Shown here: piece by piece, positions 13,707 through 24,212 of the stretch
How positions within the stretch are numbered: position 1 is the stretch's first letter
Layout: each line of letters starts with the position of its first letter
Source of the DNA: a virus
IMG/VR virus record: IMGVR_UViG_3300045146_000635
Coordinates: 1 to 25,718 of that record
Direction: 5' to 3' (one strand)
DNA length: 25,718 bases
Program-made: the position numbers and the translations under genes
The notes under the pieces: generated by a model
The model's database searches: none
Told to the model about the DNA's origin: nothing
The model's input: only the letters and a program-made list of their open reading frames with translations

Positions 13707-14450
13707 TCAGAATAATTTTAACTGTCGTTTGTGGTTTTCAATTCTCTTGCTCGCCATTTCCATAAATAAATGATCAATCTCAAAAGCTATATAATTTCTT
13801 TTTTCAATTTGAGCTGCAACACAAGTCGTACCGCTTCCGGCAAACGGATCAAGGACAATATCACCTTCATTTGAATGGAGTAATATTATTTTTCTCATCA
13901 AATCAACAGGTTTAACAGTCGGATGTTCTCTTTCTGAAGGTATTATTTTGGGAATTCTCCATACGTTTGGCGTTGTATTGCCACCATTCCAGCGATGAGC
14001 CGGATCGCCATTTTGTGCTATAAGTATAAATTCATAATTGCGCCGATAATGCAGCCCCATCCCTAATCCCCCTTTATCCCAAACGATTGCTTGCTTAAAT
14101 CCTATATACTTATCCATTAGAAGTGTCCATTTAGCAAATAATGGTTTTGGACCGCCGCCGCCGCCGCAGCAGCAGCAGCAGCATGCACCCTTTTTTAATA
14201 TTCGTTTTGCTGTTTTCAAAAAATCCTCAAATAATTTCATCGCTGTTTCTTCATCATCATTTGCTATCGGACGGGGAACCATTCGTGATTTATCACCATT
14301 AAATATGGCTTCCCAGAGGGAAGCCATATCGCCGTTGTTATAATTTAGTCCATAAGGAGGATCGGTAACTATTAGGTCAATAATTTTATCCGGAATGTTT
14401 TTCATCCCTTCCAAACAATCCATCAGGTATAGTTTATTCAGCTCTAACAT
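13707..14450 (-). CDS. DNA N4/N6-methyltransferase (beta-type order)
   Basis: A 247-residue amino-methyltransferase with the catalytic motif TDPPYG at residues 29-34 ahead of the AdoMet-binding DPFAGSGTTC at 201-210, the beta-class order. HPTVKP at 176-181 is also typical. It may protect phage DNA from host restriction or mark it. Residues 90-100 form an unusual run of six Cys and five Gly encoded by TGC and GGC/GGT repeats. The start overlaps a tiny membrane gene by 17 bp. The recognition site cannot be read. Confidence 0.9.
   Translation of the reverse strand: MLELNKLYLMDCLEGMKNIPDKIIDLIVTDPPYGLNYNNGDMASLWEAIFNGDKSRMVPRPIANDDEETAMKLFEDFLKTAKRILKKGACCCCCCGGGGGPKPLFAKWTLLMDKYIGFKQAIVWDKGGLGMGLHYRRNYEFILIAQNGDPAHRWNGGNTTPNVWRIPKIIPSEREHPTVKPVDLMRKIILLHSNEGDIVLDPFAGSGTTCVAAQIEKRNYIAFEIDHLFMEMASKRIENHKRQLKLF
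14151..14183 (-). repeat. Codon repeat, six TGC then GGC/GGT, in the methyltransferase gene
   Basis: Six TGC codons are followed by four GGC and one GGT on the minus strand, a trinucleotide run of 33 bp that is strikingly GC-rich in an AT-rich gene. It encodes Cys-6, Gly-5 at residues 90-100. Similar Cys/Gly-rich loops are, to my memory, found in related phage methylases, so it may be a functional loop and not drift alone. Confidence 0.85.
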
Positions 14451-14825: not shown

Positions 14826-15590
14826 TTAGAAACCTAAGTGTTGACGCATTTTTTGTTTTTCGATCATTTCCTTTTGGGTCATCGGTATTCCTCTGTTGTT
14901 AGATACCTTCTGATAATTAATTTCGTTTAATTCATCTTCCCAACATCTCTGATTTATCCATGTTTTAAAATGTTTCCATTCAGGGATGAACTTACTTTCA
15001 GAAAACAACTTATTCCTGAATTTTTTCTGTTTCTCAATAGCTGGATATAAAAGAGGCATACATATTTTCCAATCAGAATGCTTAATAAAATTCTTAAATT
15101 CGGTATCCAATCCCCTCTTTGTGCCCGGGTAAAATTTCCTCGCCAAATCAAATATATCCTTATTCATATCTTTATCTTTATCCTTATCTTTATCCTTATC
15201 TTTATCCTTAGCTCCTTGTAAGGGGCTTCTAAGGGGCTTATTTATTTTTAAATTATATTTTTCTAATTGATGAATAACTGAATTGTGTGCCCTATTCTCA
15301 ATGTTCAATTTTCCATATTGAAAATCAATAAATGAGCTTATGAACCATTTCTTGCCTGAATCAATCTCTACTATTCTTTTTTCATCAGCATTAAATAATC
15401 TCAGTGCTTCATCTTTATCAATAATCATGTCTGAACCTAAATAAATTCGTGCTATTTCAAAATCAACAATCCAAATACCTGCATGATCACATTCACATAA
15501 AATGAAATCCCAAAGGAGCTTATAAGCCCCAGGTAAGCTCCTTATAAAAGGCTTATGGTATTTTTGTGTATCAATAAATCTTTTTGCCAT
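14826..15590 (-). CDS. Phage replication initiator / replisome organizer-like protein
   Basis: A 254-residue protein with a lambda O-like layout. The N-terminal 120 residues look like a winged-helix origin-binding domain (MAKRFIDTQKYHKPFIRSLP, YKLLWDFILCECDHAGIW, WFISSFIDFQYGKLN). A Lys-Asp repeat linker (seven KD pairs, about residues 128-141) follows. The C-terminal domain has DIFDLARKFYPGTKRGL, KTWINQRCWEDELN and a helical end. It neighbours the SSB-like gene. Several short repeats inside it could be the origin. It overlaps the second-frame gene upstream by 20 bp. I cannot name an exact family. Confidence 0.65.
   Translation of the reverse strand: MAKRFIDTQKYHKPFIRSLPGAYKLLWDFILCECDHAGIWIVDFEIARIYLGSDMIIDKDEALRLFNADEKRIVEIDSGKKWFISSFIDFQYGKLNIENRAHNSVIHQLEKYNLKINKPLRSPLQGAKDKDKDKDKDKDKDMNKDIFDLARKFYPGTKRGLDTEFKNFIKHSDWKICMPLLYPAIEKQKKFRNKLFSESKFIPEWKHFKTWINQRCWEDELNEINYQKVSNNRGIPMTQKEMIEKQKMRQHLGF
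15172..15207 (-). repeat. Three perfect 12-bp tandem repeats encoding the KD linker
   Basis: The plus strand carries TTATCTTTATCC three times without mismatch (15172-15183, 15184-15195, 15196-15207), with partial copies on either side. In the gene this gives the Lys-Asp linker. Repeats in the same place in lambda O form the replication origin, so an origin role is possible. Confidence 0.85.
15210..15543. repeat. Dispersed AAGGRGCTT repeats within the replication gene (candidate iterons)
   Basis: AAGGGGCTT occurs at 15220-15228 and 15231-15239 (11-bp spacing) with an inverted copy at 15210-15217. AAGGAGCTT is at 15513-15521 and its exact inverse AAGCTCCTT at 15535-15543, making 10-bp inverted arms (15513-15522 and 15534-15543) with an 11-nt spacer. 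A weaker AAGCCCC copy lies between them at 15524-15530. The encoded residues differ between the two clusters, so protein sequence alone does not explain the match. A role as initiator binding sites is inferred. Confidence 0.5.
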
Positions 15591-16425
15591 TTTTCATAGA
15601 ATTCAAACATTCCAGTAATATTGAATTTATATGTTTTGGTTCACTTGCAAACCGAGGGTTCAAACTGCCAACACCCGTATTCCTTATTTCTTGACAATTC
15701 CCAAGCATCTTTTGCATATTCCCGTGTGGTGTCCCCGCTGCATCTTCGTTTGATGTCGGTATCGGAAACATCTTCACATATCTCATTAAACTTAATTCTG
15801 CATTCCCGTTTGCAACCATTTGTAATGTCTTTTTTGATGTCCCATCTATGCTTGCTTTGGGAGTCGGAAACATCTTTACATAACTGTTCAATTCCTTTTT
15901 TTGACTGTATCTTTTGCTTTTTGGATTTATGTCTGCTCCTTTGTAATCTCTTTGTAGTGGAGTCGGAATGAATTGTTCTGATCTCCGAATTATTGCCGTC
16001 CCCAAATGCATCTGATAACCTTCTTCCAAGTATTTTTCCGTCCTTATATTCCCCCCATCTCCTGCTGTTGCAGTAGGCAACAATCCATATTCTGTCTCTT
16101 CTATGCCATGTACCGACGGCACAAGCCGGAATAACAAATGTTTCGAGCCTATACCCTGCATCTTCCAGGTCAGCGAATATCCTTTCAAGTGTTCTGCCAT
16201 TTTCCATCGAGATGAGGCCAGCAACGTTTTCGCCAACAACAAAGGCCGGTTGAACTTCCCGGATAATTCTAAGCATTTGAGGCCAGAGGTAACGGTCATC
16301 CTTTGTCCCCTGTCTTTTACCTGCCTGACTAAAGGGCTGACAAGGGAATCCTCCGGAAATAATGTCAACTGATCCCCTGAATTGGGTTCCATCAAATTCG
16401 TATATGTCTCTAAATCGTTTGACAT
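15571..16425 (-). CDS. Second-frame gene overlapping the cytosine methyltransferase
   Basis: An open frame of 284 residues lies almost wholly inside the methyltransferase gene in another frame of the same strand. It reads DQLTLFPEDSLVSPLV, MTVTSGLKCLELSG, then YSLTWKM, LLFRLVPS, and several Pro-Thr-Pro motifs (LLPTATAGD, FIPTPLQRD, MFPTPKAS, MFPIPTSN) and GSLNPRF. As I remember them, phage proteins with repeated PTPTAxD and a C-terminal LNPxFVEWLMGFP are widespread. Here the tail after LNPRF departs from that. It may be a true overprinted protein or an echo of methylase conservation. Function is unknown. It overlaps the replication gene start by 20 bp. Confidence 0.5.
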   Translation of the reverse strand: MSNDLETYTNLMEPNSGDQLTLFPEDSLVSPLVRQVKDRGQRMTVTSGLKCLELSGKFNRPLLLAKTLLASSRWKMAEHLKGYSLTWKMQGIGSKHLLFRLVPSVHGIEETEYGLLPTATAGDGGNIRTEKYLEEGYQMHLGTAIIRRSEQFIPTPLQRDYKGADINPKSKRYSQKKELNSYVKMFPTPKASIDGTSKKTLQMVANGNAELSLMRYVKMFPIPTSNEDAAGTPHGNMQKMLGNCQEIRNTGVGSLNPRFASEPKHINSILLECLNSMKNGKKIY

Positions 16426-16555
16426 CCGGGAAATGTTTTTCTAAAACTTTATTGCAATAATTATCAATTTCAACCTGGAAGATGTTTGTCCACCCTATCC
16501 ACTGTGCTGCCAAATCAAAGCCACCGATACCGGAAAATAAGCTGCCATGATTCAT
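15641..16555 (-). CDS. DNA C5-cytosine methyltransferase, C-terminally short
   Basis: A 304-residue Dcm-type enzyme. Motif I is GSLFSGIGGFD at residues 4-14, motif IV is GFPCQPFS with catalytic C72, motif VI is ENV at 109-111, and motif VIII is HRRDRIWIVA at 151-160. After that come low-complexity, basic segments with two VSD(S/T) stretches, and the protein stops at FEPSVCK. Family members continue with a segment like RVADGIPxRVDRLxxLGN that holds motif X, so AdoMet-binding parts appear missing. It may be weak, need a partner, or be decaying. Its start is coupled by ATGA (4 bp) to the gene before it. Confidence 0.85.
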   Translation of the reverse strand: MNHGSLFSGIGGFDLAAQWIGWTNIFQVEIDNYCNKVLEKHFPDVKRFRDIYEFDGTQFRGSVDIISGGFPCQPFSQAGKRQGTKDDRYLWPQMLRIIREVQPAFVVGENVAGLISMENGRTLERIFADLEDAGYRLETFVIPACAVGTWHRRDRIWIVAYCNSRRWGEYKDGKILGRRLSDAFGDGNNSEIRTIHSDSTTKRLQRSRHKSKKQKIQSKKGIEQLCKDVSDSQSKHRWDIKKDITNGCKRECRIKFNEICEDVSDTDIKRRCSGDTTREYAKDAWELSRNKEYGCWQFEPSVCK

Positions 16556-16861: not shown

Positions 16862-16999
16862 TTAAAGAGTAATTTGTTTCCCATTAACAGTGATTGTAAT
16901 TTCAATGTCAACGCCAAACTTCTGTGATTCAACTTTCCTGTTAATAAGCGTCTGTAATTTTACCGATGATATAGTATCTTTTAAAGTCCTTTTTCTTTT
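16862..16999 (-). other. Short open frame without a normal start codon
   Basis: A frame of 45 codons ends at 16862 and overlaps the 3' end of the repeat-protein gene in another frame. Its second half reads like a real peptide (LINRKVESQKFGVDIEITIT, then VNGKQITL) but contains no ATG, GTG or TTG after the preceding stop. It could be the tail of a gene whose start was lost, or a product reached by recoding from the overlapping gene. I see no clear slippery site in the needed direction. Confidence 0.3.
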
Positions 17000-17702
17000 T
17001 CAGTTCATAAAGTACAGCTGCTTTTTCGCCTCCATGAAGCCTCCACGTTGTACCATAATAACTTGCGACAAGTCCTTGTTCCCATAGGTCAATGGCTGGC
17101 TGAAATGGATTTTTAAACGGCTCATGATCTATTCCTTTACATTTTTCTATTCTGAAAAATGATGAATAATAAGCCCAGACCGAATCCCAGACCGAAACCC
17201 TGACCGAATCCCTGACCGAAACCCAGATCGAAACCCTGACCGAATCCCAGACCGAATCCCTGACCGAAACCCCGACCGAATCCCTGACCGAATCCCTGAC
17301 CGAATCCCAGACCGAATCGCTGACCGAATCCCTGACCGAAGCCCATTCTTTCAGTAATTCAATATGTTTTTCCGTTATTTCAGGGGGAGAAATTTTAAGA
17401 GGGTTAACAATTTCTTTGATTATTAAAGGTTCGCAGACCTTTTTAAAATCAAACTTCTGAACCCATCTTTTAGCCAAAGCCTGGTCATCCTTGATATTTA
17501 TCTGATCGACCTGAAAGACTTTAGTTAGCGGGTTGTATTCATAATTATTAACCTTTTCGTCCAACCCGTAAAAATCAATTATCGAACTGTGCGAATCAGG
17601 TTCATATCCTTTTGGATTATTTTTCAGTAATTCCTGTCTTTGAGGCCAGTCAAAATAATATCTTTTACTGCCCTTTGTTACGAATGAAAAAAATTGACAC
17701 AT
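16941..17702 (-). CDS. Protein with xSVx tetrapeptide repeats (WDSV/RDSV)
   Basis: A 253-residue protein in three parts. The N-terminal 115 residues (MCQFFSFVTKGSKRYYFDWP at the start) look globular. Residues 120-177 hold 14 tetrapeptide units of the type [D/V]SV[W/R], for example WDSVRDSVRDSVGVSVRDSV. The C-terminal part has YYSSFFRIEKCKG, FQPAIDLWEQGLVASYYGTT and WRLHGGEKA. Similar repeats followed by a WRLHG-type ending occur in phage proteins of unknown role; I know no proven function. A regular beta fold is plausible. It lies 4 nt after NinG. Confidence 0.7.
   Translation of the reverse strand: MCQFFSFVTKGSKRYYFDWPQRQELLKNNPKGYEPDSHSSIIDFYGLDEKVNNYEYNPLTKVFQVDQINIKDDQALAKRWVQKFDFKKVCEPLIIKEIVNPLKISPPEITEKHIELLKEWASVRDSVSDSVWDSVRDSVRDSVGVSVRDSVWDSVRVSIWVSVRDSVRVSVWDSVWAYYSSFFRIEKCKGIDHEPFKNPFQPAIDLWEQGLVASYYGTTWRLHGGEKAAVLYELKKKKDFKRYYIIGKITDAY
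17160..17343 (-). repeat. 12-bp coding tandem repeat
   Basis: Fourteen or so units of 12 bp, plus-strand pattern GACCGAATCCCT or GACCGAAACCCA and close variants. Because the unit length is a multiple of three, no stop appears in two frames of the minus strand; the alternate frame reads as GFGQ repeats. The unit changes are mostly single bases that swap Trp and Arg or Asp and Val in the main frame. Confidence 0.85.
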
Positions 17703-23714: not shown

Positions 23715-23760
23715 GTTGACTGAAAATAAAAATAAAACCCGTCAGGGTTTGGTTTGGGCT

Positions 23761-24034
23761 GCAGGATACCCCGAATGGGATCACGAGCCGCACAGCGGCG
23801 AGTAATCCCTTTGGTCTGAGGAGCATGAAATGCGCTTTCATAAGCGGATCAGAGCAATAAAAATTACAACACGCAGTGTTGAGTTGTATTTTGGTTTGCA
23901 GGATACCCCGAATGGGATCACGAGCCGCACAGCGGCGAGTAATCCCTTTGGTCTGAGGAGCATGAAATGCGCTTTCATAAGCGGATCAGAGCAATAAAAA
24001 TTACAACACGCAGTGTTGAGTTGTATTTTGGTTT
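23761..24034. repeat. Two identical 137-bp tandem units
   Basis: Bases 23761-23897 and 23898-24034 are identical over 137 bp. Each unit contains a GGGAT..ATCCC hairpin, a TCTGA..TCAGA hairpin with inner ATGAAA/TTTCAT pairing, and an ACAAC..GTTGT hairpin. A diverged third unit starts at 24035. There is no convincing coding frame. Confidence 0.92.
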
Positions 24035-24212
24035 GCAGGGTACTCCAAACGGGATCACAAGCAACACGAAGTGATGCTTGTAATCCCTACCCCTGTTGAA
24101 AGCTTGCTTTCGATCAGCAGCTGACTGAAAATAAAAAGAAAACCCATAAGGGTTTGGGGTTGCAGGATCCTCCGAATGGGATCATGAGCGAACGGAGTGA
24201 GCGAATAATCCC
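23777..24212. repeat. Hairpin family GGGAT-N-ATCCC with varying stems (four copies)
   Basis: Copies at 23777-23809, 23914-23946, 24051-24087 and 24178-24212 share a left box (GCAGG..CC.AA.GGGATC) and outer GGGAT/ATCCC arms with a C.A mismatch. The inner stem differs: GCCGC/GCGGC, ACAAGCA/TGCTTGT with CAC-GAA-GTG, or GC, AC / GT, GC separated by GA.GA pairs. Each keeps pairing. AAACCC-N4-GGGTTT hairpins lie between some copies. This is intergenic and host-side. Confidence 0.8.

Follow-up and report, generated by a model that had tools for sequence, protein, structure and literature searches.

The C5-methyltransferase M.EcoHK31I recognises YGGCCR and consists of two polypeptides, alpha and beta. 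In 1995 Lee, Kam and Shaw reportedly placed its beta reading frame inside that of alpha, in an alternative frame, and both polypeptides are said to be needed in vitro. Motifs I-VIII and X of M.EcoHK31I reside in the larger polypeptide, where the recognition domain is also predicted to lie, and motif IX resides in the smaller one (PMC3404938). In M.AquI, the catalytic half and the recognition half with motifs IX-X occupy two polypeptides (PMC3404938). Our search of the literature found no report of nested methylase genes in phages. Prokaryotes seldom have long same-strand gene nesting in which selection acts on each frame, and such cases are difficult to prove; the nesting described here has been conserved in phages as well as in several bacterial phyla, and lends itself to base-by-base testing.

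The locus lies in a 25.7-kb virus record (25,718 nt; IMG/VR record IMGVR_UViG_3300045146_000635), the whole of which is termed the window. Its integrase, repressor, RecT-like protein, terminase, portal and major head protein genes are those of a temperate tailed phage. Three other features of the window were recorded in passing. An N4/N6-type DNA methylase gene (13707-14450) contains six Cys and then five Gly codons in a run (ACCCCCCGGGGGP). A 12-bp repeat occurs 14 times at 17174-17344, inside the ORF 16941..17702, where it encodes DSVRDSV repeats and leaves a second frame (GFGQGF) open as well. Lastly, a 137-bp tandem repeat of 2.3 copies with 95% matches occupies 23753-24062, near the integrase gene.

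A first-pass annotation of this DNA had described two long open frames on one strand inside a Dcm gene, with signatures linked base by base. Both descriptions hold. The ORFs 16555..15641 (alpha) and 16425..15571 (beta) have 785 bp in common, or 752 bp when counted from the ATG at 16392, and GAAAACGTTGCTGGCCTC, for example, encodes ENVAGL in the alpha frame and KTLLAS in the beta frame. The third frame of the same strand has 21 stops over the overlap. The features of the locus are as follows.

16555..15641, minus strand: alpha, catalytic ORF of a C5-cytosine methyltransferase with motifs I-VIII; 304 codons, frame 0; Pfam PF00145, phrog_363.
16425..15571, minus strand: beta, ORF in the +1 frame relative to alpha; 284 codons; phrog_1008.
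16392, minus strand: ATG taken as the homologous start of beta by comparison with relatives; 273 aa, MEPNSGDQLTLFPEDS.
15641..16392, minus strand: same-strand overlap of alpha and beta, 752 bp from the homologous beta start.
16085..16392, minus strand: proximal overlap, alpha motifs IV-VIII over the beta N-terminal arm (LTLFPEDS...TSGLKCLEL...LTWKMQG...LLFRLVPS).
15641..16083, minus strand: distal overlap, putative recognition-domain region of beta, where alpha is unconserved.
16340..16342, minus strand: codon of the motif IV catalytic Cys (FPCQP) in alpha.
16063..16083, minus strand: beta repeat LLPTATA.
15946..15972, minus strand: beta repeat FIPTPLQRD.
15853..15873, minus strand: beta repeat MFPTPKA.
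15751..15771, minus strand: beta repeat MFPIPTS.
15649..15663, minus strand: LNPRF, the first half of motif IX, in beta; the remainder (WLMGYPxGWT in relatives) is absent.
15591..15648, minus strand: truncation junction of both frames, where similarity to intact relatives stops; the next ORF begins at 15590.

Alpha matches the C5-cytosine DNA methyltransferase family PF00145 (Pfam, E 6e-50), and motifs I, IV (PCQ), VI (ENV) and VIII are present in the window's copy. Between motifs VIII and X, an alignment of relatives has no majority residue across about 90 columns. When alpha of an intact relative (L001) was modelled with AlphaFold2, motifs I-VIII and X were mostly of high confidence, and residues 195-292 fell below a pLDDT of 50 and are predicted to be disordered. 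Alpha of intact relatives carries motif X (GN); a conserved recognition domain and motif IX are absent from alpha, intact relatives included. Across the family, motif IX is located in beta rather than alpha: beta of intact relatives combines PTPxA repeats with a motif IX of the form LNPxWVEWLMGYPxGWT, of which the window's copy retains LNPRF alone. The phage protein family with PTPTAxD and LNPxF that the first-pass annotation had mentioned exists: the window's beta ORF matches phrog_1008, labelled 'DNA methyltransferase' (E = 5e-22), a match that beta makes in 60 of 60 members. No beta family was found in Pfam or NCBIfam, no recognised domain in the beta N-terminal arm, no homology between alpha and beta by profile comparison, and no match of beta to solved structures by sequence search; a low-confidence model of beta (pLDDT 60) gave nothing significant against solved folds, including the small domain, with Foldseek or VIA-align.

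The locus very probably encodes a two-subunit C5-cytosine methyltransferase, with the smaller gene, beta, nested in the +1 frame within the larger, alpha. Two-part cytosine methylases of this kind have been known since the 1990s, and beta is most likely the subunit that recognises DNA. Alpha would serve as the catalytic subunit and beta would supply target recognition and motif IX, the two presumably assembling into one enzyme. Over the DNA of the beta recognition domain, alpha would be read in the other frame as an unstructured linker whose main use would be to reach motif X, and translation of beta is probably begun independently from the internal ATG. A temperate phage may use such an enzyme for site-specific modification of its DNA, presumably as protection from restriction. 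The first-pass annotation had suggested that a second product might be added to a defence-evasion gene; this is only partly right, beta being most likely no extra function but the missing half of one and the same enzyme, with the recognition domain and motif IX.

Beta also occurs outside the nested layout. In three loci (L027-L029) it is open for 414 codons through the PTPxA repeats, motif IX and motif X, and frame 0 has 27-28 stops from beta codon 125 onward. A locus from a bacterial genome (L164) has the layout of L027, with frame 0 broken after motif VIII and beta open. Mycobacterium phage Shaka (gp77/gp76) and Gordonia phage Upyo (54/53) encode split methylases whose second protein bears the PTPxA repeats and motifs IX and X, and gp64 of Mycobacterium phage Deb65 and gp5 of Gordonia phage MelBins each carry the beta C-terminal unit behind the catalytic half, without a change of frame. 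A profile of the beta C-terminal half matches the free-standing ORFs of Shaka gp76 (4e-18) and Upyo gp53 (4e-24) as well as frame 0 of Deb65 gp64 (1e-14) and MelBins gp5 (5e-12), and has no match to ordinary monomeric methylases. The free-standing and fused occurrences thus indicate that the C-terminal half of beta is the part of a C5-methyltransferase that comprises recognition domain and motif IX.

Among 80 bacterial genome loci retrieved by beta motif IX, 76 have beta overlapping alpha in the +1 frame, 75 of these being nested with motif X in alpha and one overlapping without motif X; the other four are fused or frame-swapped. The nested form itself may have originated through an indel between motifs IX and X that shifted X into the alpha frame. 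Several individual loci have features of their own. The fused monomers of Deb65 (L122, 799-2823) and MelBins (L123, 1192-2679) retain a beta-like +1 ORF over motifs IV-VIII, an arrangement that looks like a frame swap by indel within the recognition domain, and four further loci (L079, L179, L203 and L207) swap the alpha and beta frames midway, apparently by indel. Five loci from one Roseovarius chromosome (L183-L187) share one best match to the nested methylase. The alpha frame of another locus (L041, 828-2393) has a long in-frame insertion that ends in VHN directly before the catalytic Cys (CQPFS) and resembles an active-site intein.

The split layouts bear on whether the two frames yield two proteins or are joined into one polypeptide by a programmed +1 frameshift. 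One such shift near the alpha stop would give a complete monomer in L027, L164 and Shaka gp77/gp76, and fused monomers do exist. We nevertheless consider this reading improbable, since the beta N-terminal arm, which lies upstream of the shift site, is conserved beyond any echo of alpha, since beta begins with an ATG and Shine-Dalgarno signals, and since the nested form has motif X in the alpha frame, so that a single shift would lose it. It is similarly doubtful, to a degree bordering on the implausible, that beta is a separate overprinted protein with a function of its own, such as a regulator or an anti-restriction protein, and not a methylase subunit. The beta N-terminal arm, which is under selection yet has no known domain, would fit such a protein; the C-terminal half, however, is homologous in frame to that part of fused methylases which holds the recognition domain and motif IX, these same elements are missing from alpha, and beta nearly always accompanies alpha. 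The best reading of the sequences is accordingly not overprinting by an unrelated protein but a beta that would form the other half of the enzyme.

Whether the second frame encodes protein at all was addressed with 80 viral loci retrieved by alpha alone, beta having played no part in their selection. All 80 have a beta match, in the +1 frame only, and this frame is open for about 130-360 codons in each; across the overlaps, the beta frame contains 0 stops, compared with 1393 in the third frame. In a shuffle test, alpha codons were permuted among synonymous positions such that the protein was unchanged. The longest open +1 run of the window is 264 codons, against a mean of 96 and a maximum of 189 in 200 shuffles, and the real beta profile score was reached by 0 of 17,200 shuffles over 86 loci. 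The beta profile gave shuffled alphas approximately 50 bits on average, and this third or so of the real scores is the true size of the echo. With profiles built from half of the loci and scored on the other half, the beta C-terminal half reached a median of 107 bits for real and 7 for shuffled sequences, and the N-terminal half reached 163 and 88 bits, respectively. Echo accounts for about half of the signal in the N-terminal half and for almost none in the C-terminal half.

Substitutions were counted in 48 disjoint pairs, with alpha-synonymous change scored at conserved codons. This change was 0.36 upstream and 0.41 downstream of the overlap, whereas inside it the values fell to 0.225 in the proximal and 0.183 in the distal part (Wilcoxon p 3e-8). 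Change at alpha positions 1/2/3 was 0.159/0.106/0.387 upstream, 0.145/0.077/0.239 in the proximal overlap and 0.363/0.237/0.309 in the distal overlap. The fastest site of the distal overlap is alpha position 1, which is beta position 3; because the freest site is thus the third position of beta, beta is the better protected frame there. Shine-Dalgarno matches of at least 5 nt precede 35% of beta starts, versus 7-10% in controls consisting of internal ATGs and synonymous resamplings (p ~2e-4), and the window's own beta start has no clear Shine-Dalgarno sequence.

Large-scale dual coding, as the first-pass annotation had proposed, is therefore backed by stop patterns, shuffles and synonymous-site suppression over many homologues, the last of these being a check it had proposed; many second-frame stops and unreduced synonymous change were both looked for and not found. 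Its own alternative, in which methylase conservation and codon bias merely hold the +1 frame open and similar, would explain the bits that shuffled alphas retain, but it is extremely improbable in view of the shuffles that never reach the real score, the near absence of echo from the beta C-terminal half, the suppressed synonymous sites within the overlap, and the survival of beta where the alpha frame is broken, where it is fused and where it is free-standing. Judged on comparative grounds, the second frame is a genuine overlapping gene, and both frames are conserved as proteins.

More tentatively, the beta N-terminal arm (~100-140 residues over motifs IV-VIII) could be an additional, overprinted domain that does more than take part in recognition, for example by docking to alpha or by controlling assembly or timing, and nesting could be a general, largely unannotated coding format for phage and bacterial cytosine methylases; we hold this combined proposal to be possible but rather unlikely. 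Annotation often lists alpha alone, so the recognition subunit is missed, and alpha expressed alone would probably fail or mislead. The annotated cytosine methylases of phage SEN5 (L154, 778-1767) and phage epsilon15 (L155, 613-1782) contain unannotated nested betas of 282 and 348 codons, respectively, with motif IX-like ends. This wider nested pattern, often unannotated, is of more interest than the window's own copy.

In that copy, the 3' ends of both frames are missing, a point that the first-pass annotation had passed over. Similarity to intact relatives stops near 15648 in each of the two; a search of the window in all six frames found no motif X, and the MGYP half of motif IX was not found there either. 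The next ORF starts at 15590, its relatives begin at the same ATG, and all but one of the loci with such relatives have no such methylase alongside. The alpha/beta pair was probably shortened by deletion, and an assembly error is also conceivable; the 26-mer at the junction was not found in other viral contigs of a collection from which near-identical records may be missing. As both frames are otherwise open, the deletion would be recent or a product still in use. Lacking motif X and half of motif IX, the window's copy probably has no activity by itself, or its damage is recent. From its sequence, then, the locus is a damaged copy in which the dual coding is real and belongs to a known kind.

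Among described genes, gp50 of Paenibacillus phage Diva corresponds to this nested gene and was annotated by its depositors as 'g49 internal gene'; neither this label nor that of phrog_1008 states a subunit role. The split layout of M.AquI is common to L027, L164, Shaka gp77/gp76 and Upyo 54/53, whereas the nested family has motif X in the alpha frame and beta buried within alpha. M.EcoHK31I differs in that its recognition domain is predicted in alpha, while the conserved PTPxA region here lies in beta; it also differs from the window's copy, which is without motif X and half of motif IX, although intact relatives have X in alpha. The family would work as M.EcoHK31I does, and its likeness in layout extends to the distribution of motifs and to the nested arrangement itself, with a smaller ORF inside alpha, in the other frame, that is under selection here.
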